Below are positions 13,468 through 24,290 of a DNA stretch of 24,673 nt, piece after piece. The notes beneath the pieces were generated by a model. The model was not told the origin of the DNA. It was given only the letters and a program-made list of their open reading frames with translations, and made no database searches. The stretch lies in the IMG/VR virus record IMGVR_UViG_3300047319_000524, positions 1 to 24,673 of that record. One strand, written 5' to 3'. This DNA comes from a virus. The translations under genes and the position numbers were made by a program. Every line of letters starts with the position of its first letter. Position 1 is the stretch's first letter.

Positions 13468-13474
13468 CTCCTTT
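13468..13474 (-). promoter_or_regulatory. Near-ideal Shine-Dalgarno site of the 164-aa gene
   Basis: Minus-strand AAAGGAG, six bases before the ATG at 13461. The first base of this block is also the last base of the capsid stop codon. Confidence 0.75.
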
Positions 13475-14772
13475 CAGACCGCCACGCGCACCCAGGCGCC
13501 GGGCTTCTTGACCAAGAATCCGGGGTCCGAAACAGCTCGGAGCTCCCGCATGTCCGTCGCGTCTTCCGTGCGCATCGTGCCGAGCGTGCCCATGCCGTTG
13601 CCCATGTCCCAGTGAACGAGGGGTCCGATCGAGCCCATGACGACGGTGTCGAGCTCGCCGCATCGCTCGACGTTGTCCGGCATCCACATTGACGCCATGA
13701 CGTTGATCGGGCCGCGCGGGCCCTGGATGACGGCGGCGTTGTATTCGACGCCCGTCTGGTACTTGCCCACCGGCGCCGACGGCACCTTCGTATAGACGAG
13801 CTTGTTGTCCATCTCGAACTCGAACTTTTCGAAGTTCCGCGTGGACAGCAGGTACGTGTCCGGCTTGTTTCCGGCGTCCACGCAGATGCGCGCGGCGCGC
13901 TTGATCCGCTGGTAGACGCTGAGGTTCGTCCCGACCATCGGACGACCCGCGAGCCAGCCTGGGTTCTGGTTCCGGTCACACGTCAGGAGCGTGCCGGGCT
14001 TCGTCGACGGCCAGTTGTAGGTCGGCAGGAAGCCGTCCAGGCCGATGATGTAGTCGTTGTCGTAGCAGCCGGCGCCGTAGATGCTGAACCCGGTCGCGAC
14101 GGTGAGGTCAGGGAAGGCGTTGGCCCACGTGACCGAAGCTCCCGAGGAGTCCACGATCTGGACGCTGGGGGCGCCCTCCATGCCGACCGCCTTGACGAAC
14201 GCGACGAAGGTGGACGCCGTGCCACCGGTGAGGCCGGTCGCCTCCACCGTGATCGGACGGCCCTCTTCGAAGTTCTTCAGGTCGTTGTCGTTCGTCAGCG
14301 TGATCGTGTCGGTCGTGACGGTCGACGTGGAGTTGATGACTCCGAGGACGCCGACGCCGTTGCCGTGGATCGCCGTCGAGAAGCGGCGCCGCATCCGGTC
14401 GATGGTGGCCTCCCCGGCGCGGGTCACCGGATCGACGAGCAGGGCCTCCTGCTTCGTGTACTCGTACGTGCGGAGCAGCTTCCCCTCGAGAGAGAGGGAG
14501 GCGTACATCTCGCGCGTCGTGTACTGGAACTCAGCCTCGCGCTGAGTCGTCTTGTACTGCTTGGCGTCCGCGTAGGTTCGCCCGATGCCCTGGTTCGCGC
14601 CCCAGCCCAGCGGGTGGTGGCGGATGCCGTTGGTCCAATCGGTTTCCTTCGCGCACGACCCGAGGAGCGGCTCTTCCGAGATGATCTCGTCGAGCAAGCT
14701 CTCCTGCGGCCAAATCTGTCGAACGAGCCCGCCAGCAATGTAGATGGCGGAGGTTTCCGGTCCGGATGCCAT
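13474..14772 (-). CDS. Major capsid protein (432 aa)
   Basis: Placed directly after the scaffold gene and before a strongly translated small structural gene. The ATG at 14772 has GGGAGG five bases upstream. The sequence starts with an extended arm (SAIYIAGGLVRQIWPQESLLDEII), followed by helical and beta segments, with a central sequence RPITVEATGLTGGTASTF and many aromatic and Gly turns. The C-terminus has repeated Met/Gly turns (VHWDMGNGMGTLGTMRTE). Its length of 432 aa is near that of the P22 coat (430 aa), but I see no motif proving that family. It forms the icosahedral shell and is assembled on the scaffold and portal. The call is based on position, length and expression signals and is a confident inference. 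Confidence 0.8.
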   Translation of the reverse strand: MASGPETSAIYIAGGLVRQIWPQESLLDEIISEEPLLGSCAKETDWTNGIRHHPLGWGANQGIGRTYADAKQYKTTQREAEFQYTTREMYASLSLEGKLLRTYEYTKQEALLVDPVTRAGEATIDRMRRRFSTAIHGNGVGVLGVINSTSTVTTDTITLTNDNDLKNFEEGRPITVEATGLTGGTASTFVAFVKAVGMEGAPSVQIVDSSGASVTWANAFPDLTVATGFSIYGAGCYDNDYIIGLDGFLPTYNWPSTKPGTLLTCDRNQNPGWLAGRPMVGTNLSVYQRIKRAARICVDAGNKPDTYLLSTRNFEKFEFEMDNKLVYTKVPSAPVGKYQTGVEYNAAVIQGPRGPINVMASMWMPDNVERCGELDTVVMGSIGPLVHWDMGNGMGTLGTMRTEDATDMRELRAVSDPGFLVKKPGAWVRVAV

Positions 14773-15862: not shown

Positions 15863-17848
15863 TCAGGCCGCCATCGGTGGCGGCGTCATGAGCTGGTCTC
15901 CCGCGGGCGCGACGCCCATCGGGAGGATCGGTTGTCCGCCCATTGGCGGCGGCGCTGGAGCTCCAGGGCCAGGGCCCGTCGGCATCGGAGGCGAGCCAGG
16001 AGGCACAGCGCCATCGACGACGGCTTGCGCGTTCTGGACCTTCGGAGTCATGAGGAAGTCGCAGTCGTCAATGAAGCGCGTCAGCAGATCGAGAACGTGC
16101 TGCGGGGCGCCGTCCATCTGGGCCTGGAGCCTGCGCTGGTGAGCGCGCTTGTGCGCCCATGCGAGGGGCAGGTAGCCGTTCGGGGCCAGGTAGTCGCCGT
16201 TGTCGTTCGCGGCGGTGTCGGCCTTGTCCGAGTCCAGCATCGCCTCGATCATCTCGTCCACGCAGATGCGGTCGACCGTCTCGAGGTCGAGCTCGCTCTG
16301 GAGATCGCCCGCGTCGAGATGGCGCATGAACGTTTGCGCGTCGATGGCGCCCATCTCGAAAAGCGTCTTGAGCTTGTCGAGCCGGCCGGCGAACGACGTG
16401 TAGAGCGCCCCCACGCTCTGGAGCTGGAGCTGGAAGCCGTCGACGTGGACGTCCGACCATTTGAGGTCCAGGAAGGCGCCCTTGAGCGGGACCTGGACAG
16501 CGTAGTCGCCATACCTCTTCGCGAGGTCTTTCGCGCACTCGATGAGCAGGCGCATGACGTTCATGCACCACGACTCGAACCGACGTCCGAAGACGATGTG
16601 CCGCTGACTCTCGATGTCGTCGAGCGTCTGAAGCGCGATGCCCGCTTCGACCCCGGCCGGCTTCTGGCTCTGCGCGCTCATCTGCGAGACGCCGGCGGCG
16701 TTCAGGGCGCGCTGCACCAGCTCCGGCGCGCGCTCCATCATGACCTCGTCCGCGAGGTTCATGTCGAAGACGGTGGGCTCATACGGCCCCGGGCGGGCAT
16801 GGCCGATGCGCAGGCCGTTCTGGATGTCCTGCTCGAACACACCCGAGCCGTCCCGAAGGATGACCATCTTGCCGGAGTGCTCCAGCGACTCGTTCGCCTT
16901 GCAGTTCGCGTCGTTGATGCTGACCTGGTAGCCCTCCAGGGTCTGCACCAAGCCCGTGCCCCAGTAGCCGGTGTTCGGCGTGTCGTAGGTCAGGCTGGCG
17001 AATGGGAAGAATCCCTTGTGCCACTCCTCGTCAACGAGCAGCGCGCCGTTGTTCGTCACGATGACGTGGCGACCCTCGCATTTGTGCGCCGGGTCCATGT
17101 CGTCATGCCCAATGCACCGGAAGAACGTCTCGAGCAGCTCCACCCGGTCGACGGTGCTGCAGCGCTCCTCGTCGCGGTTGTGGCGCGCCAGCGAGCTGAA
17201 GTGCCCAGCGTTCTTGATCTTGTCCCGTAGATCCGGCCTGCCCTTGCCGTACATCCGCATCGCACGACCGCGATCCATCGTCCGAAGGCGATGGATGGTC
17301 GCCGGCTCTCCAGACTCGGCGTCCCAGTCGTCGACGTAGAGCGTCCAGGAGTAGACGCGTTCGACGGTTGGCTTGCGGGCGCCATGCTCGACATGGACCT
17401 GAACCACGCCGGCGCGCGAGACGAGCGAATCCTTGATGATGCGCGGCGCCAGCTCCTCGTGGATCTTCTGCCGGAAGAACTCACCTTCTCCGAACTGACG
17501 GAGCTTCCGCGCGCGGCGCTGATCCTTCCAGTTGCCTCGGCTCGTGAGCACCTGCGGGATGGGCCGAATCGTCGCCACCTTCGCCGTGAGCGTGTCGACG
17601 GCCATCTTGCAGACGTTGTCTGGAAGCGTAGCGTTCTCGTATTCGAAGCCCTTGCGGGACTTCGTCGTGATGCCGCCTACGCCGGTGCCCTCGTACAGGC
17701 CCCAGTGGTACTCGTCCTTGCCGGTGCGCCATTCGTTCTCGTCGCGGACGATGGTGAAGACGCGCGCGAGCGTGGTGGCCAGCTCTTCGCCGTCCTTCTC
17801 CTGCCAATTGGCGTCGCGAAGAACGCTAGCTGTTGCCGTCGTCGCCAC
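15863..17848 (-). CDS. Portal (head-tail connector) protein (661 aa)
   Basis: The start is GTG at 17848-17846, overlapping the upstream gene by 23 nt; no ATG exists before residue about 80. The N-terminal domain carries aromatic helices (DENEWRTGKDEYHWGLYEG), then mixed alpha/beta, a long middle with GFFPFASLTYDTPNTGYWGT typical of podoviral portals, and a helical bundle to about residue 600. The last 50 residues are Pro/Gly/Met-rich and probably disordered (PPPMGGQPILPMGVAPAG). Length is close to other P22-like or podoviral portals. It forms the dodecameric ring for packaging and ejection. Context after the large terminase and before scaffold supports this. Confidence 0.8.
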   Translation of the reverse strand: MATTATASVLRDANWQEKDGEELATTLARVFTIVRDENEWRTGKDEYHWGLYEGTGVGGITTKSRKGFEYENATLPDNVCKMAVDTLTAKVATIRPIPQVLTSRGNWKDQRRARKLRQFGEGEFFRQKIHEELAPRIIKDSLVSRAGVVQVHVEHGARKPTVERVYSWTLYVDDWDAESGEPATIHRLRTMDRGRAMRMYGKGRPDLRDKIKNAGHFSSLARHNRDEERCSTVDRVELLETFFRCIGHDDMDPAHKCEGRHVIVTNNGALLVDEEWHKGFFPFASLTYDTPNTGYWGTGLVQTLEGYQVSINDANCKANESLEHSGKMVILRDGSGVFEQDIQNGLRIGHARPGPYEPTVFDMNLADEVMMERAPELVQRALNAAGVSQMSAQSQKPAGVEAGIALQTLDDIESQRHIVFGRRFESWCMNVMRLLIECAKDLAKRYGDYAVQVPLKGAFLDLKWSDVHVDGFQLQLQSVGALYTSFAGRLDKLKTLFEMGAIDAQTFMRHLDAGDLQSELDLETVDRICVDEMIEAMLDSDKADTAANDNGDYLAPNGYLPLAWAHKRAHQRRLQAQMDGAPQHVLDLLTRFIDDCDFLMTPKVQNAQAVVDGAVPPGSPPMPTGPGPGAPAPPPMGGQPILPMGVAPAGDQLMTPPPMAA

Positions 17849-18284
17849 GACGTACCAGGCCGCCCGTCGCGCTCATGCGCTTCGGCGGTCCCTTGGGTTC
17901 GTCGTGCTTGGTGTCGGCCGTCCGAGCGGCCGGTGTTGCGAGCGGCCCGAATTCGACGGAGGCCAGCGAGCCGTCGGGGTGGAACGCTGCGCGCGTCACT
18001 CCCTTCGCTCGGAGGTCGTCCAGGTCGATCTCGGCCATTCGCTGCTCGGAATGTAGCTGGACTGGCGGCGACGCGCAATCCGGCTTCGGGTATCGTGCCG
18101 CTAAGACCTCGCGGTCGACGTACTCGATCGGGGTGAGCCAGGCGGGTCGCGCGCTTGAGCAATGGCCCTCGCCGCAGAACGGCCCGGGCTGCCCCGGGTG
18201 ATTCGCGGCGGTCGCGAACATGGCGCTGGTGTTCGGACAGCGTCGACCGCCCACGAGCCCGCGACAGCGGAGCCCGTCGCTCAC
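17826..18284 (-). CDS. Cys-rich protein between terminase and portal (152 aa), unknown
   Basis: The start is GTG at 18284-18282, overlapping the TGA of the large terminase (GTGA) with GGAGG five bases upstream; an ATG 14 codons earlier lies in terminase coding DNA and is less likely. The first 40 residues carry four cysteines (C at about 7, 16, 37 and 42) with His/Gly, suggesting a zinc-binding module. The C-terminal half contains a small segment (MAEIDLDDLRAKGVTRAAFHPDGSLASVEFGP) that reads like the separate small proteins often placed before portals. So the gene may be a fusion of a zinc-like module to that domain. The protein may belong to the packaging complex; this is inference. Confidence 0.68.
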   Translation of the reverse strand: MSDGLRCRGLVGGRRCPNTSAMFATAANHPGQPGPFCGEGHCSSARPAWLTPIEYVDREVLAARYPKPDCASPPVQLHSEQRMAEIDLDDLRAKGVTRAAFHPDGSLASVEFGPLATPAARTADTKHDEPKGPPKRMSATGGLVRRGDDGNS

Positions 18285-19906
18285 GATCGCCTCCAGTGCT
18301 TCGCCTGCGTCGCTCCGCGCTTCCAATACGGCCGCTCCGCCTCCTCGCGGAACGCCTTGGCCCGGTCGGCCTTCAACACCGCCTCGTGCTCAGGCGTGCC
18401 TGGCTTCGGCGCGGGTGCCTTTACCTCATCGCCGTAGAGTTGCCAGAGCGCCAGGACGAGGGCCGCGACGAGGTCGCCGTGGCCTCCTTTCGCCCACCGC
18501 GGATGCATGATGCTCATCCCGCCGCCGGCGGTCGGCCTGCCCTGCACTTCGCGCATCTGCTGTAGCAGCCGTTCACGAAATTCCATGCCGCCGTGGATGC
18601 GCACGCGCCCTTCCCGGAACAGCATGCGCGCGCGTATGTAGGTGTCCGCGGGGGTCGCCGGCGCCGGCACGTAGGCGAGGCCGTGCGTCTCTAGGTGCTC
18701 CACGATGGCCTCCCGGTAATGGGAGTCTGCCATCAGGAAGCGGCATCGGCCTGCGAGCTTCGCCGCGAACGCCTTGACCGTGGCGCTCGGCTTGAGCGGG
18801 GCGTCCTCGGATGGCCGTTCCTCTGCGCCGTCGAAGACGTGGAGCAGGTCCCGCGACCCAACCGAACCATCGGGCTTGGTCACCTGCTCGACCCGGCGCG
18901 CCACGAGCATGAGTGCCGACGAGTCGGACCTGAAGCCGAAGTCTCCGCCGGCGGCGACAGCGTCATGCGTCTGGAGCGAGAACGGCTCGTCCAGCAGCGC
19001 AGCGTCGATGCTCGCGCCCTCGAAGAACACCGTGGTGCCGCTCGTCATAAACTTCGCGTCGAACTCGCGCGCCGCGTTGTCCGGATCGCGGAGCCGCTCG
19101 CGCTCGACGATGGCGCGGGTCATCTCCGAGTCATGCATCACCAGCGTCGGCGCGTGCGCCACGAGCGCATCCACCGGCTTGCCGAAGTTCCGCTTGTGGA
19201 GGTCGTAGAGCAGACCCGCCTGGGCCCACGGGGTCGATGCGACGATTGTCTGCCCGCCAGGGAGCACGCGTGCCGAGCCCGCGCGGAAAATCTCCTCGTC
19301 GTTCACCTTGAAGCTTGAATCGCGGAAGAACGCGCACTCGTCGAGCGCGAAGTCCGTCAGAGCCCGACCGCGCGCGCCGTAGCCGCCGGCAGTCGCAACG
19401 CCGGTCTCGAATCGCACGACCTTGCCATCGTGTCGGCGCATCCCGAAGCCGTCCGCGCTGTCCTCGATGACCATCGCGTCGAGCTCGGGCTTGCTCCGCA
19501 CGGCGCCGCGGGCGTAATTCGCCACCTCGCGCCGCAGCTTGTCGTTCGGCGCCACGATCAAGGCGACGGCTCGTTGGCCTGGAGCCAGCGAAGACAGGTC
19601 GCGCATGAGCATTCCATGCACCAGTCGTAGAGCCACAGCGACATAGCTTTTGCCGCCGCGGGCTCCGCAGACAGCCGCGACGACGGAACGCGCGCCCACC
19701 GGCACACCACCGGTGAAGCCAAAAAGCCGCTCACCAAGTCCGCCGCCGGGCTCACGTCGATCATAGGCCACGGCCGCGAACTCAGCCTGCCCGTCGGTGA
19801 GCGCAACCCCGAGCCATTCGCAGAAGCCGAGGAAGGTCGCCGGGACATCTGCATCAGTGTGCAGCCGTTGAGGCCGGCGCTTGAGCAGCGCCTTCTCCAA
19901 TGACAT
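18281..19906 (-). CDS. terL: Terminase large subunit (ATPase-nuclease, 541 aa)
   Basis: The ATG at 19906 has GGGAGG seven bases upstream; it overlaps the small subunit by 53 nt. The Walker A-like loop is CGARGGKS (80-87). The Walker B segment is TDFALDE (about 184-190) with D and E as metal and catalytic residues. A coupling phrase IVASTPW follows (about 221-227). The C-terminal nuclease domain carries D322 (AGGDFG), D394 (MADSH) and D478 (GHGDLV), the usual three-acid RNase H-like set. The subunit pumps DNA into the capsid through the portal and cuts concatemers. It is complete. Confidence 0.9.
   Translation of the reverse strand: MSLEKALLKRRPQRLHTDADVPATFLGFCEWLGVALTDGQAEFAAVAYDRREPGGGLGERLFGFTGGVPVGARSVVAAVCGARGGKSYVAVALRLVHGMLMRDLSSLAPGQRAVALIVAPNDKLRREVANYARGAVRSKPELDAMVIEDSADGFGMRRHDGKVVRFETGVATAGGYGARGRALTDFALDECAFFRDSSFKVNDEEIFRAGSARVLPGGQTIVASTPWAQAGLLYDLHKRNFGKPVDALVAHAPTLVMHDSEMTRAIVERERLRDPDNAAREFDAKFMTSGTTVFFEGASIDAALLDEPFSLQTHDAVAAGGDFGFRSDSSALMLVARRVEQVTKPDGSVGSRDLLHVFDGAEERPSEDAPLKPSATVKAFAAKLAGRCRFLMADSHYREAIVEHLETHGLAYVPAPATPADTYIRARMLFREGRVRIHGGMEFRERLLQQMREVQGRPTAGGGMSIMHPRWAKGGHGDLVAALVLALWQLYGDEVKAPAPKPGTPEHEAVLKADRAKAFREEAERPYWKRGATQAKHWRRS
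18290..18294 (-). promoter_or_regulatory. Shine-Dalgarno site that decides the GTG start of the 152-aa gene
   Basis: Minus-strand GGAGG, five bases before the GTG at 18284. This is inside the last codons of the large terminase gene. Confidence 0.65.
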
Positions 19907-20288
19907 CGCGCAGCCTCCCATGCAGATCCGGATCTGCGGCCACCTTTGCGAGCAGCGACTCGCGCTCGTCGCTGATGGTCGCGCGCACGCGTCCGCCCCA
20001 GCGAGATGGCCAGCGCCGTTCCATGATCCACGCCTTGCTCTGCCAGCCGTCGACGCCGGCGCGCACCTGCTTGAGCAGCCGACGCTCCGCTGTCGCCTCC
20101 GCTTTTTGGAGGGCGTCGGAGAATTCCGCGAACGGCTCCTCACCACGCGCGCCCCGCTGCTCCCATCCGTGGAGCGTGTCTCGGTGGATGCCCGCCGCCT
20201 GGCAGGCCTGCGCCTTGTAGTTGCCAGCTCGGATCGACGCGAGGATCCGAGCCGCGACCTCCGGCGTCAGCAAGGTGGGGCGCGCCAT
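19854..20288 (-). CDS. terS: Terminase small subunit (144 aa)
   Basis: The start ATG at 20288 joins the stop of the upstream gene (TAATG); an in-frame GTG nine bases upstream is less likely. The N-terminal region (LTPEVAARILASIRAGNYKAQACQAAGIHRDTLHGWEQRG, within about 6-46) is a helix-turn-helix of the type that recognises packaging sites. A helical segment (EATAERRLLKQVRAG) and a WQSKAWIMERRWPSRWG-type phrase, typical of phage small terminases, follow. Its place directly before the large subunit is the standard arrangement. It recognises phage DNA and regulates the large subunit. Confidence 0.85.
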   Translation of the reverse strand: MARPTLLTPEVAARILASIRAGNYKAQACQAAGIHRDTLHGWEQRGARGEEPFAEFSDALQKAEATAERRLLKQVRAGVDGWQSKAWIMERRWPSRWGGRVRATISDERESLLAKVAADPDLHGRLRDVIGEGAAQAPASTAAH

Positions 20289-20602
20289 TAGAGCCACTTC
20301 GTAGGCGACTTGCCCTTAGACCGGTCGCGCCTGCGGACGTTTCGGATGTGCCGGAACATGGCCGCTTCGGCCTCGTTCATGGGGTGGACGACGACCGGGC
20401 TGAACTCAGTCTGACCGATCGGTTGTCTAGGCTTCCTGCAAGCTGCGCGGCAGTCACCATTCCGCTTGTGCCAGTGCGCCGGCATGACCTTCCAGCGCGA
20501 CTCGATCTCGGCCCGCATCTGGCGCCGGCCAGTGCGCGCATTCGCGAGGCGCACGAGGCGCACCGCCTCGCGAATCCTCGACTTGGTATCGTCCGGGCTC
20601 AC
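20288..20602 (-). CDS. Small basic protein (104 aa), unknown
   Basis: The start is GTG at 20602-20600, overlapping the groES stop (GTGA). The first half is a helical, strongly basic segment (SRIREAVRLVRLANARTGRRQMRAEIESRW). The C-terminal end is also basic (RHIRNVRRRDRSKGKSPTKWL). Two cysteines and two histidines in the middle (PAHWHKRNGDCRAAC) could bind a metal, but the spacing matches no family I know. Charge and the position between co-chaperonin and small terminase suggest a nucleic-acid-binding accessory protein. This is inference only. Confidence 0.62.
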   Translation of the reverse strand: MSPDDTKSRIREAVRLVRLANARTGRRQMRAEIESRWKVMPAHWHKRNGDCRAACRKPRQPIGQTEFSPVVVHPMNEAEAAMFRHIRNVRRRDRSKGKSPTKWL

Positions 20603-20916
20603 GACTCGATCACCGCGATGATCTCCACCTCGGGCAAGAGGACCGGCGAGCCCTCTTTGCTCTGCGGCGTGATGCGCTGCGCGATCGTGTTCTCGAGGTA
20701 GACGACGACATCGCCGCGCTTCACCTCGGGCTCAACGCGAGCGCCCCTGTCGGTGACCCTTCCCGGGCCTACGCGGAGCACGGTCCCGATCTGCGTCTTG
20801 TCGCGCACCGTCTTCGGGATCACGATGCCACCCTCCGTCCGCTCCTCGTGCGGGTGCGGCTGGAGCAGGACGAAGTCGCGGATCGGTCGGCAGTTCTCGG
20901 CGTTCGGCTTCTGCAT
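20599..20916 (-). CDS. groES: GroES-type co-chaperonin (Cpn10, 105 aa)
   Basis: The sequence follows the GroES family from RPIRDFVLLQPHPHEE (matching RPLxDRV-type starts) through the mobile-loop phrase GGIVIPKTVRDKTQIGTV and VGPGRVTDRGARVEPEVKRGDVVVY to VEIIAVIES. The GGIVIP segment corresponds to the loop that binds GroEL, so it is probably able to cap host GroEL. The length of 105 aa is near the bacterial 97. The ATG at 20916 has GAGG nine bases upstream; its first 185 nt overlap the upstream frame. Codons here favour G or C at position 3, showing this frame is the main coding one. Phage co-chaperonins, such as T4 gp31, help GroEL fold the coat; the location before packaging and head genes fits that. 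Confidence 0.88.
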   Translation of the reverse strand: MQKPNAENCRPIRDFVLLQPHPHEERTEGGIVIPKTVRDKTQIGTVLRVGPGRVTDRGARVEPEVKRGDVVVYLENTIAQRITPQSKEGSPVLLPEVEIIAVIES

Positions 20917-21109
20917 CTGGCGAATCCTCGCGGTAATGTGCGACGTAACCGACGCCGCAGATGGTCAATCGCTGCGGCCCCTTGCGGAGCTGCACCAGGT
21001 AGTCGTCGGCGGCGATCGTCCAGCCCTCGGAGGCGTAGAACGTGCGCGAGTGAGGCATCCCGTTCTGAGGGATCGGCAGATCGCGGACGAACTCGATCGT
21101 GACGATCAT
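20732..21109 (-). CDS. Small beta-type protein whose 3' half overlaps groES (126 aa)
   Basis: The ATG at 21109 overlaps the TGA of the GNAT gene (ATGA). Residues 1-60 look like a compact beta domain (MIVTIEFVRDLPIPQNG, then RTFYASEGWTIAADDYLVQLRKG and RLTICGVGYVAHYRE) with normal GC-biased codons. The remaining half lies in the out-of-phase frame of groES and becomes Arg/Pro/Asp-rich with relaxed third positions, so it looks passively encoded rather than selected. The gene may end natively near residue 62 if a stop was lost, or the tail may be a true overprinted extension. Function unknown. Confidence 0.6.
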   Translation of the reverse strand: MIVTIEFVRDLPIPQNGMPHSRTFYASEGWTIAADDYLVQLRKGPQRLTICGVGYVAHYREDSPDAEAERRELPTDPRLRPAPAAPARGADGGWHRDPEDGARQDADRDRAPRRPGKGHRQGRSR

Positions 21110-21654
21110 CGCGCCGCCATCCTGGTCGCGAGCCAGATCGGGTCGAGCCGCCACTCCGTCGGCCGGTCAAAGCCGAACCAATCCGGCTGCGAGCGCCAGC
21201 CGAGGCGCGGCGCGCGCATCTGCGGAAGCTCGAGCGTCAGGATCTGGAACCGCTTCCACCGGTCGCCGAGCAGGTCCATGACCAGATCGCGGCAGACGCC
21301 AGCAGCGATGGCGCTGCGCTTTACGCCGACCGCGTGGAGCACATCGGCGCCGCTCGTGACGAGCCAGGCCCATATGCTCGTCTCCGGATTCGCCGGATCG
21401 ACCATGAGCGTCACGTCGGCGTTCTTCAGGAGCCACTCCCAGACCGCCCGGGTGGCGCCCTGGAACTTGCGTCGGCGCTCCTGGCCTTCGGAGTCCGACT
21501 CACGAAAGCCGGAGGCGCCCGCGTATTTGCCGGCCGCGCTGCGACAGTAGCTGCCGGACAGGAACGACATCATCCCGTCCTCGTCCAGCGCCGCATCGTA
21601 GGGACGGAGCAGCCATGGCCGATCATCGTCCGAGAGGGCTTCGGCAGCGCTCAC
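21106..21654 (-). CDS. GNAT-like N-acyltransferase (182 aa)
   Basis: The start is GTG at 21654-21652, overlapping the KGG gene stop (GTGA), with AGGGG four bases upstream. Residues about 15-50 (LLRPYDAALDEDGMMSFLSGSYCRSAAG) resemble a phage GNAT-like family that begins LRPY..D and contains a serine/tyrosine-rich turn. A central phrase (WEWLLKNADVTLMVDPANPETSIWAWLV) and the following HAVGVKRSAIAAGVCRDLV match the strand, VK and helix of the acetyl-CoA-binding half. The exact pyrophosphate loop (R/Q-x-x-G-x-G) is degenerate here (RSAIAAG), so catalysis is unproven. The substrate is unknown. It sits between a KGG protein and a small beta protein and before packaging. Confidence 0.62.
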   Translation of the reverse strand: MSAAEALSDDDRPWLLRPYDAALDEDGMMSFLSGSYCRSAAGKYAGASGFRESDSEGQERRRKFQGATRAVWEWLLKNADVTLMVDPANPETSIWAWLVTSGADVLHAVGVKRSAIAAGVCRDLVMDLLGDRWKRFQILTLELPQMRAPRLGWRSQPDWFGFDRPTEWRLDPIWLATRMAAR

Positions 21655-21875
21655 TCGGCCCCTGCGATGTGCGGCTCGACCGGCTCGGAGGACGATGATG
21701 TTCGCTCGGCGCGTGCTCGCGCCTGCTTGATCAGGCCGCCCTTGCGACCAGCGGCCTGTGCCTCTTCGCTCGTGAAGACGTGGGCTTTGCCCGCAGCGTG
21801 CGCCGCCGCTCCGCCCTTCGCGGCAATCTCCCGCACGCGAGCAGGATCCATTCCGCCAAAACCTCGCTTGCCCAT
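21651..21875 (-). CDS. KGG-motif (stress-protein-like) small protein (74 aa)
   Basis: The N-terminal half contains RGFGGMDPARVREIAAKGGAA and then SEEAQAAGRKGG, the pattern of bacterial KGG or 'general stress' proteins. The C-terminal third is Ser/Glu-rich. The ATG at 21875 has no clear Shine-Dalgarno site and is preceded immediately by a six-base inverted repeat; a second in-frame ATG at codon 9 is an alternative start, but RGFGGMD is part of the family motif, so the first is preferred. Its role in phages is not known. It is the first gene after the AT-rich gap and so a likely beginning of the late operon. Confidence 0.7.
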   Translation of the reverse strand: MGKRGFGGMDPARVREIAAKGGAAAHAAGKAHVFTSEEAQAAGRKGGLIKQARARAERTSSSSEPVEPHIAGAE

Positions 21876-21877
21876 AC

Positions 21878-21896
21878 AGAGCAGCTAACGTGCTCT
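21878..21896. repeat. Inverted repeat immediately upstream of the KGG start
   Basis: Arms AGAGCA and TGCTCT are separated by seven bases. They lie 2-21 bases upstream of the ATG on the minus transcript, where a ribosome site would normally be. Could be an operator or an RNA hairpin. Confidence 0.6.
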
Positions 21897-21930
21897 TGCG
21901 TGCGGCGTAAAGCTCCAGCATTGCACTTTT

Positions 21931-21983
21931 GTCCCACCCATCAGTCGCGGCACTGTCCCATCGTCCCATCAATTCCATGGGAC
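21931..21983. repeat. GTCCCA repeat cluster
   Basis: Copies are GTCCCAC (21931), GTCCCAT (21955) and GTCCCAT (21963), plus an inverted ATGGGAC (21977-21983). The last two form a 7-7-7 dyad. This resembles an operator or iteron array but is short. Confidence 0.65.
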
Positions 21984-22062
21984 CAACGGGAGGCTAAAAC
22001 CCCTGTACTGCTATAGGTATAATCAAATACATATTACTAATCATATAGGACAGGATAGGACG

Positions 22063-22103
22063 TTGGGCCAAACTGCGTAATCATTAAAGAATTAGCGGCC
22101 CAA
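22063..22103. repeat. Inverted repeat across the vapE stop
   Basis: Arms TTGGGCC (22063-22069) and GGCCCAA (22097-22103) enclose 27 AT-rich bases and the TAA stop. No T-tract follows, so it is at most a weak terminator or an mRNA 3' stabilising structure. Confidence 0.5.
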
Positions 22104-23369
22104 TCCGTCAAGTGCTCGCCCATTGTAATCGCGGAAGTACCGCCACTGACGGGCCTCTCCTACGGTCGCGCGATGACGCTCAAACCCTTCTGACTTCAGG
22201 ATTTTTGCGACCCTTGTTTCGTCACTTCTCGACCAGCGACCCCGGTCTACACCCACATGCTCCAAAACCTCCCCGACGGAGACGCTCTCACGTGCATTCG
22301 CGTAGTTGAGAACCACGTCTGTCCACGCATCTCCTTGATATCGCTTGTCAGTGTGAATTCGCAGATCGCGGAGCAAACTCGGGTCTTTGATGTAGGTGTC
22401 GCCATTGTCGCGGTAGAGAATTACAGCCTCAGCCCACAACAAATCGACATCGCGCCTTAGCTCATCCAGCCTCACGGGCCCGCATAGGACCGGAAGCCAC
22501 CTCCGATTACCGGAGTCGTCCCGCAGGTAGTCGCTTTGATTCGTGGTGCCAGCGAAGACGCAGGACCGGGGATGCTCGGCGATGTGGCGGCCGTACGGCG
22601 CGCGGAATCGCTCCACCCGCCGCGTGATGAAGCTTTTTACGCGCGTGACCTCCGCGCGGCTGAGCGCGTCGAGCTCGGACAGCTCCACGATCCAGGCGCC
22701 GTGAAGCTGCATTGCGGCGTCCTTCGACCCGATGTCCGCCAGCTCATCGGTAAAGAAGCCGAGCGCGAGCGTACGGAGCGCACTGCTCTTTCCAGCGCCT
22801 TGGATGCCTTCCAAGACGAGCGCGGCGTCGACCTGGCACCCGGGAGAGAACGCACGCGAAACGGCCCCCAGCATCCACGTGGACGCGATGGCGCGGTGCA
22901 CGGGCGTGTCCTCCGCCCCCAGGTAGACAGACAGCCAGGTGGCGAGCCTCGGGACGGCGTCCCACCGCAGGCTGTTCAGCTTGTCGCGGAGCGGATGGAA
23001 GGTGCACCGGTGGGCGGCTTCCGGCACTGCCTCAGAGACCTTCGGAGCCGACACGTCGAGCTTCCACCGCGACTGCTGGAGCCAGTTTGCGGCCTTCAGA
23101 TCGGCGAGGTCGTTCCAAGGTCCTGGCTCCCCAGCGGGGCACGCGCGCCGGATCATGATGCGCTCGGCGAAGGCGTCGAAGCCGATCGCGCCGCGCCAGT
23201 CGTCCTCGCTCGTCAGGATCATGGCGATGTTGTGCGAGCACTTCTTGAGTGGCCCCGGCTTGCCATTGTCGGAGCCGGATCGCAGAAGCTGGCGCTCCCA
23301 TAGGTTCGCGACATTCGACGAAGGGAGGGGCTTAGGCTTCCGCCGAGACTCCGGAGATTCTTCGCTCAT
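22092..23369 (-). CDS. VapE-family P-loop ATPase / replication protein (425 aa)
   Basis: The start ATG at 23369 overlaps the preceding stop (ATGA), with GGAGGAG eight bases upstream; an in-frame ATG at 23390 with its own GGAGG is the alternative. A Walker A loop GIQGAGKS occupies residues 188-195, preceded by VDAALVLE. A Walker B segment WIVELSELD lies near 226-234, followed by FITRRVERFRAPYGR and the diagnostic TTNQSDYLRDDSGNRRWLPV (about 275-294). This pattern is that of virulence-associated E proteins, SF3-like helicase ATPases used by phages and satellite islands to replicate. The C-terminal 50 residues (SVGEVLEHVG to WRYF) look like a winged-helix domain. No primase catalytic motif was seen in the N-terminal part, so a separate primase may lie outside the window. 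Confidence 0.85.
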   Translation of the reverse strand: MSEESPESRRKPKPLPSSNVANLWERQLLRSGSDNGKPGPLKKCSHNIAMILTSEDDWRGAIGFDAFAERIMIRRACPAGEPGPWNDLADLKAANWLQQSRWKLDVSAPKVSEAVPEAAHRCTFHPLRDKLNSLRWDAVPRLATWLSVYLGAEDTPVHRAIASTWMLGAVSRAFSPGCQVDAALVLEGIQGAGKSSALRTLALGFFTDELADIGSKDAAMQLHGAWIVELSELDALSRAEVTRVKSFITRRVERFRAPYGRHIAEHPRSCVFAGTTNQSDYLRDDSGNRRWLPVLCGPVRLDELRRDVDLLWAEAVILYRDNGDTYIKDPSLLRDLRIHTDKRYQGDAWTDVVLNYANARESVSVGEVLEHVGVDRGRWSRSDETRVAKILKSEGFERHRATVGEARQWRYFRDYNGRALDGLGR

Positions 23370-23785
23370 CCGATCAGCTCCTCCAGACATGAGGCCACCT
23401 CCTCGTTCCAATCCGGATCGTCGGCGACGACACACCGTGCCAAGTCCTCCGAGTGCTCGATCACCGCGTCTCGGTAAGCGAGCGCCTTCTCCGCGCGGCG
23501 GCGCGCGCGCTCGAGATTCGTGACGGCCTTCTCGAGCTCCTCCTTCGCGGAGGGCACAAGGCCCATGACGTGAAGAGCGTAGCCCCGAACGCGGATGCGA
23601 TGGATCGGATCTGCCTCCGATGCCGGGACGTCCTCCGAGAACTCGGCCGCGTACATCGCATCGCTTTCCGGCGGGTACTCGAACGTGCCTTCCCACTCGA
23701 CGAGGCCGTCCAGGATCTGTCGATTGCGCTCGAGCCGCGCGGCCAGTCGGATCTCGGCTTCCGCCCAAACGTCCTCGTCTGTCAT
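23366..23785 (-). CDS. Acidic helical protein between nuclease and VapE (139 aa), unknown
   Basis: The start ATG overlaps the nuclease stop (ATGA), and its own stop overlaps the VapE start in the same way. The protein is acidic. Residues about 78-115 (PSAKEELEKAVTNLERARRRAEKALAYRDAVIEH) form a strong heptad coiled coil, followed by a conserved-looking DPDWNEEVASCLEELIG end. No enzymatic residues are evident. Tight coupling suggests it acts with the nuclease or the ATPase, perhaps as a regulator or partner subunit; that is inference. Confidence 0.7.
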   Translation of the reverse strand: MTDEDVWAEAEIRLAARLERNRQILDGLVEWEGTFEYPPESDAMYAAEFSEDVPASEADPIHRIRVRGYALHVMGLVPSAKEELEKAVTNLERARRRAEKALAYRDAVIEHSEDLARCVVADDPDWNEEVASCLEELIG

Positions 23786-24114
23786 GACGGCAGCCTCCGC
23801 GCCATGTCGAGCAGCCGGAAGGCCTCCTCGATCGACCTCGCCTCGCCGGCGACGCCCTTGAAGCGACGGATGACGTCCATGAAGCGGAGCTGGTCCTCGG
23901 TCGCCTTCCCGCGCTCGCTCTTCACCTCGATGGCGAGGAAGCGCCCCCAGGGGGGCACGCAGCAGATCAAGTCGGACGAACCGACGCCCATACCGTCCGT
24001 CTTCTTCGGCTTCGCGCCGCAGGACCAGCAGCTCTCGATCCGGTTCTTCTTCACGAGCGCGTAGGCCTGCGAGAGCGCCTCGCGGATCGCGGCCTCGATC
24101 TGCCGCTCGCTCAT
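23782..24114 (-). CDS. VRR-NUC-type PD-(D/E)XK nuclease (110 aa)
   Basis: Start at ATG 24114, overlapping the upstream stop (ATGA); an in-frame GTG three codons before is possible. After an N-terminal helix (ERQIEAAIREAL) the sequence has GMGVGSSD at about 41-48 (the D of the PD motif), then FLAIEVK at 59-65 and GK..EDQ at 69-75. This is the signature of the VRR-NUC family, endonucleases that cut branched DNA or resolve replication intermediates. A CWSC pair at 29-32 between helix and core, together with CC at 51-52, may bind a metal. The length of about 110 aa is typical of stand-alone phage versions. It is tightly coupled to its neighbours, so it probably processes phage replication intermediates. 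Confidence 0.85.
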   Translation of the reverse strand: MSERQIEAAIREALSQAYALVKKNRIESCWSCGAKPKKTDGMGVGSSDLICCVPPWGRFLAIEVKSERGKATEDQLRFMDVIRRFKGVAGEARSIEEAFRLLDMARRLPS

Positions 24115-24290
24115 CGCTCCCACCCCTGCTTGATGCTGCGCGGCACCAGGTCACCCTGGTCGGGCATCATGTTCAGGAGCTTCCGGCACACGAAGCACCG
24201 GAACAGCGCCAATTCACGATCCGCCGTCCGAGTCGGCATCGCCCAGACCTGAGGTCCGTGGGCGCGACACTTGAAGCCAACGTACCGCAA
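24111..24290 (-). CDS. Small Cys/His protein (about 59 aa), start uncertain
   Basis: The reading frame ends at 24111 and is open from an ATG at 24398. However, its first 36 codons lie over a strong terminator and carry relaxed third bases, so a TTG at 24290-24288 preceded by AGGTGGG is chosen here as a possible start; 54 residues into the long frame another ATG (24239) would give 42 aa. The coding part has CRAHG and later CFVCRKLL, a likely zinc-ribbon-like C..H..C..C arrangement. The stop overlaps the VRR-NUC start (ATGA). Function unknown. Confidence 0.5.
   Translation of the reverse strand: MRYVGFKCRAHGPQVWAMPTRTADRELALFRCFVCRKLLNMMPDQGDLVPRSIKQGWER

Follow-up and report, generated by a model that had tools for sequence, protein, structure and literature searches.

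The protein considered here is a GroES of a bacterial virus; in bacteria GroES forms the small lid on the GroEL folding machine. Among phage co-chaperonins, gp31 of T4 is its best-studied analogue. It is described as essential for folding of the T4 coat protein gp23, and the differences that set it apart from GroES, a mobile loop of 22 rather than 16 residues and the lack of the roof loops, are thought to let the 56-kDa gp23 fit (PMC6318259). Phage-encoded lids have also been described outside the T4 group. HTVC023P-type pelagiphages, which are podoviruses, carry GroES as a core gene of their clade (PMC9599517), and the Pseudoalteromonas siphovirus B8b, a non-T4 phage, has GroES among its virion genes, two ORFs from the tape-measure gene; according to the authors of the latter report, GroES had been found before in myo- and podoviruses (PMC4294664). 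Further reports concern Roseobacter CHAB-I-5 phages (PMC10149686), jumbo phage CBB (PMC5259590) and marine viral genomic islands (PMC6487183). An earlier note on the DNA analyzed here had named T4 gp31 as the classical case and had held that phage co-chaperonins are not standard in podovirus operons of this order; going by these published descriptions, GroES genes of phages are not confined to the T4-like group.

We analyzed a stretch of 24,673 nucleotides (the window), positions 1 to 24,673 of the IMG/VR virus record IMGVR_UViG_3300047319_000524. A complete ORF on the minus strand (20599-20916), preceded by GAGG ~9 nt 5' of its ATG, encodes a protein of 105 residues (11.7 kDa); a plus-strand reading of the same interval as groES was rejected. 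The earlier note had read this ORF as a complete Cpn10, and profile searches place the product inside that family: it matches PF00166 (Cpn10) with E 3.1e-18 and a score of 66 bits (cut-off 21.1), over profile positions 2-93 of 93, as well as the co-chaperonin GroES family PHROG 3188 (E 2.3e-18, profile 2-95 of 96). Comparison with PDB sequences likewise matched Cpn10 chains. In all 15 listed NCBIfam models the protein scored below the cut-off (best 69.5 bits against 136, NF001530), indicating a Cpn10-family member outside any single bacterial groES model. Judged by family, loop sequence, placement and conservation in its clade, the gene is a phage member of the GroES family and probably a functional one.

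The hydrophobic tripeptide that follows GG in the mobile loop of Cpn10 proteins binds GroEL. In the window protein the core of this loop reads GGIVIP (residues 29-34; 20815-20832, minus strand, coordinates derived from the ORF), intact as the earlier note had proposed, and the pattern GGI[VFL]IP is present in all four clade proteins, those of the window and of the relatives L008, L011 and L027. The printed alignment with Thermus GroES is gap-free across the mobile loop and the roof hairpin. The window protein has neither the longer loop nor the missing roof of gp31; with no loop insertion or roof deletion relative to Thermus GroES, a lid of the gp31 type was rejected. What distinguishes the clade is a segment after the roof hairpin, where the window protein has LENTIAQ and Thermus GroES reads AKYGG-T. 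The pattern E[YFN][NT]xxQ occurs here in four of four clade proteins and in none of six other Cpn10s compared (four bacterial regions and two other phages), so function could have shifted.

An AlphaFold2 model of a single chain, built from five phage sequences, had a mean pLDDT of 74.8, with low values for residues 21-40, the loop region (61, 55). All 34 Foldseek matches of this model at E <= 0.001 were Cpn10-family chains, led by solved Cpn10s (E 1.7e-7, TM about 0.65); T4 gp31 (1g31), likewise a phage lid, ranked below the cellular Cpn10s (E 3.2e-4). The predicted fold is thus a beta-barrel with a roof hairpin. The window protein resembles cellular GroES/Cpn10 in its full-length domain, its GGI-x-IP loop and its roof hairpin of normal length. 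It differs in that no GroEL was detected in the window record and in sharing 38-43% identity with three bacterial loci. These three were the only groES genes found in genome_contigs by a pattern-limited scan; at one of them (L032) the neighbouring ORFs look like GroEL by eye. Relatives of the terminase large subunit (TerL) were not found in genome_contigs, and these scans point to no donor or host.

All genes of the cassette lie on the minus strand, in the order orf21978, ovl, groES, a 104-aa ORF, the small terminase subunit (TerS), TerL, portal, putative scaffold and coat. At the upstream end, orf21978 (21106-21978; translation may in fact begin downstream of the listed ATG) is a conserved gene, 45-49% identical to its counterparts in L008, L011 and L027 and 31-34% to those in L002, L012, L017, L018 and L022. 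The 104-aa ORF (20288-20602) begins with a GTG that overlaps the groES stop and ends with a stop that overlaps the ATG of TerS; it has no Pfam match above the cut-off and no PHROG match. These stop/start overlaps suggest that translation of groES, the 104-aa ORF and TerS is probably coupled. TerS (19854-20288) matches phrog_4102 (E 4.1e-28) and TerL (18281-20146; true start probably downstream) matches phrog_2 (E 8.1e-16). The portal (15863-17848) gave a sub-threshold match to SU10_portal (E 0.0086) and is about 64% identical to the portals of L008, L011 and L027, and the putative scaffold between portal and coat is named by position only. Thus, the earlier placement of groES directly before the packaging genes holds for the order of the operon, but the 104-aa ORF separates groES from TerS. 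A consensus scan of 19500-22300 found no promoter or terminator. Upstream of the packaging operon, at 22092-24123 on the minus strand, are a VapE-like helicase (PF05272, E 3.5e-74) and a VRR-NUC nuclease (PF08774, E 2e-8). In contrast to this arrangement, GroES of B8b, compared by its published description, does not stand before the terminase (PMC4294664). The HTVC023P-type genomes are also set apart by description, at about 59 kb and 42% GC (PMC9599517) against 67% GC for the window; the records of the groES-bearing relatives are about 37 kb long.

The gene upstream, ovl (20732-21109, minus strand), encodes a conserved domain of ~62 residues followed by a tail that runs out of frame through groES. 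The ovl product has no family match, and a profile of the clade ovl proteins finds homologues in the groES-less relatives L012 (E 2.6e-5) and L002 (E 0.0015) and, weakly, in L003/L005 (E 0.017). In the window ovl extends 185 nt into groES (20732-20916, minus strand), and corresponding overlaps are present in L008 (7754-7926), L011 (6917-7092) and L027 (1955-2160). In all four phages the overlap is 173-206 nt including the stop, lies in the same relative frame and is reached without an ovl stop before groES. The ovl frame is open inside groES for 60 (window), 56 (L008), 57 (L011) and 67 (L027) codons. When groES was recoded with each phage's own codon usage (5000 trials), runs at least as long arose in 38, 63, 35 and 29% of trials, respectively. 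Similarity of the translated tails, compared with recoded controls in six pairs, gave P values of 0.046-0.73, one below 0.05, and the same test on the unused frame gave two pairs below 0.05. At identical residues, two of six pairs had a higher share of identical codons inside the overlap than elsewhere in groES, and four had a lower one. Selected dual coding of the ovl tail was rejected, since codon usage alone explains the openness of the frame and conservation of the tail is unconvincing. The overlap is conserved, with no clear sign of selection.

To follow the distribution of groES we used 23 relatives: 21 virus loci obtained through TerL scans, L006 from the phage collection and L027 through a portal scan. 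L003 and L005 give identical figures, as do L014 and L020, and each pair is probably the same virus twice. Several of the groES-less records are fragments and any record may be incomplete; L023 is a 4-kb fragment, and L007 (coat 43% identical), which opens just 28 bases ahead of its TerS match, is not informative. Cpn10 was sought in whole records, with none positive among five and two (L008 and L011) among 17, plus L027, which was positive; Cpn10 was also detected in L031, which is not one of the 23. The three positive relatives carry groES in the same place, with 48-51% identity to that of the window, together with coats 58-68% and portals about 64% identical. Put differently, groES was found in three of three relatives with a coat at least 57% and a portal at least 63% identical, and in none of the other 20, of which 14 have a coat match of 24-43% and six have none in the stretches fetched.

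Terminase type did not follow this division. L027 has groES, with coat and portal at 58% and 64% identity and TerL at just 26%; in L002 the terminase is of the window type (TerL 67%), the coat is of another type (37%) and groES is absent. L008 has TerL directly after groES, and BLAST finds no homologue of the window TerS there. In the groES-less L003, the stop of the weak ovl homologue (E 0.017) shares one base with the TerS start, leaving no room for groES. On this comparison, groES goes with the kind of coat and portal rather than with the terminase, a correlation among four records that could come from shared ancestry alone. Set against the window (18281-20146), L027 (2591-4153) shows a terminase difference within an otherwise conserved head module. 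A fragment outside this set, L031 (3440-5294), encodes a P22-type coat (E 2.4e-32), one small ORF and then groES, its sole match to any window protein.

The scans depend on short conserved peptides and are pattern-limited. Scanning with the groES sequence alone recovered neither L008 nor L011 nor any other relative, and a groES alignment scan missed L027; the coat sequence alone likewise brought up no relative. Two further scans, with alignments of the coat and of a downstream gene, returned the same three records and a 5-kb fragment, L042. The groES clade may thus have more than four members. Within the phage collection, 41 records match window GroES at E <= 1e-3, all below 60% identity. In a literature search over partial texts, we found no paper describing the groES-bearing phage clade of the window.

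At least one of these 41 records is bacterial DNA: CAKLQH020000021.1 (H1, L037), filed as 'Acinetobacter phage MD-2021a', has a groES region that is bacterial chromosome (groS-groL, glpK, glpD, pckG). The same could be supposed of the window, namely that misassembly or contamination joined a bacterial groES to a phage contig. We regard this as having next to no probability, because synteny is conserved: the gene sits in the same cassette in three further virus records that carry three different sample numbers. In addition, no GroEL lies beside the window groES, and its GC content (0.670) matches that of the phage (0.674). The synteny supports a phage rather than a host origin of the gene, and the concern that it was assembled host sequence falls away.

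The proposed client of the lid is the probable major capsid protein (13474-14772, minus strand; 432 residues, 47.1 kDa), identified through a PHROG match of its relatives and a low-confidence model. Neither coat nor portal of the window has a PHROG match, and the only Pfam match of the coat is sub-threshold (SU10_MCP, E 0.068). The family phrog_14242 ('major head protein') was matched by three of 11 aligned coat relatives (best E 3.9e-5), the window coat being unmatched. A model of the coat reached a pLDDT of 54.2 (low confidence), and HK97-fold capsids made up most of its best Foldseek matches, of which none reached E <= 0.001; aligned against PDB sequences, the coat gave nothing at E <= 1. 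At 47.1 kDa it would need no enlarged chamber. The coats of the groES-less relatives L002, L003 and L004 are of similar size (44-45 kDa), which argues that coat size is no explanation for needing groES. Among nine downstream window proteins the only matches were weak and mixed, one to an internal virion protein (E 9.7e-5) and one to a tape-measure family (E 1e-6), the latter of which would favour a long tail. The earlier label of podovirus is thus not established.

We propose that the window encodes a functional GroES lid that would act on host GroEL in folding virion proteins, most likely the coat, a reading to which we assign a probability of roughly three in four. Cpn60 was detected in none of the five records searched (window, L008, L011, L027 and L031), so the partner is probably host GroEL. 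The phage GroES would be expressed together with the packaging and head genes, would form the usual seven-membered lid and, through its GGIVIP loop, may dock on host GroEL. It could then supply extra or better-suited lids for the folding of virion proteins, with the 47-kDa coat as the most likely client, and this help would presumably come late in infection. The role in coat folding is indirectly supported by the pairing of groES with a single type of coat and portal despite the terminase difference; the coat itself may be the client and, as the earlier note suggested, the lid may compete with host GroES. A narrower version would have the lid adapted to a single coat/portal lineage: it would pass on together with the head module even where the terminase differs, the clade-specific segment would tune the GroEL chamber to the coat, and related phages with other coats would manage without it. 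We offer this version as a tentative possibility.

The position of groES before the terminase genes, and not adjoining the coat, is a counterpoint. It would fit a lid that works in general proteostasis or on phage proteins other than the coat (tail, replication) and whose location ahead of the terminase is incidental. In a Flavobacterium immuto phage groES adjoins GroEL and DNA polymerase rather than the coat, GroEL or GroES genes of other phages are described in DNA-polymerase neighbourhoods (PMC11348598), and the authors of a Southern Ocean virus report tie viral GroEL/ES to cold adaptation (PMC8407431). Yet groES tracks coat and portal identity even where the terminase differs, and in L031 it is one ORF from the coat gene; a role apart from the coat is, in our judgement, unlikely. 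If the loop can dock on GroEL, it would displace host GroES as well, and together with the segment common to the four phage proteins and absent from the six other Cpn10s this could point to a takeover factor that modulates or jams the host GroEL-GroES system instead of folding phage proteins. We consider this quite improbable, as the lid is otherwise canonical and of full length. Moreover, gp31 is reported to fold clients and to be able to replace GroES (PMC6318259).

In conclusion, a phage lid that would assist host GroEL in folding virion proteins remains our preferred reading of this gene. As such the finding is mostly ordinary: genes of this kind are known from other phages, podoviruses included, and what is understood of phage co-chaperonins is unchanged. 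What the clade provides is a natural comparison between related uncultivated phages with and without a GroES of their own, in which presence of the gene tracks coat/portal type and not terminase. This comparison would make the question of which protein needs a phage lid testable outside T4.
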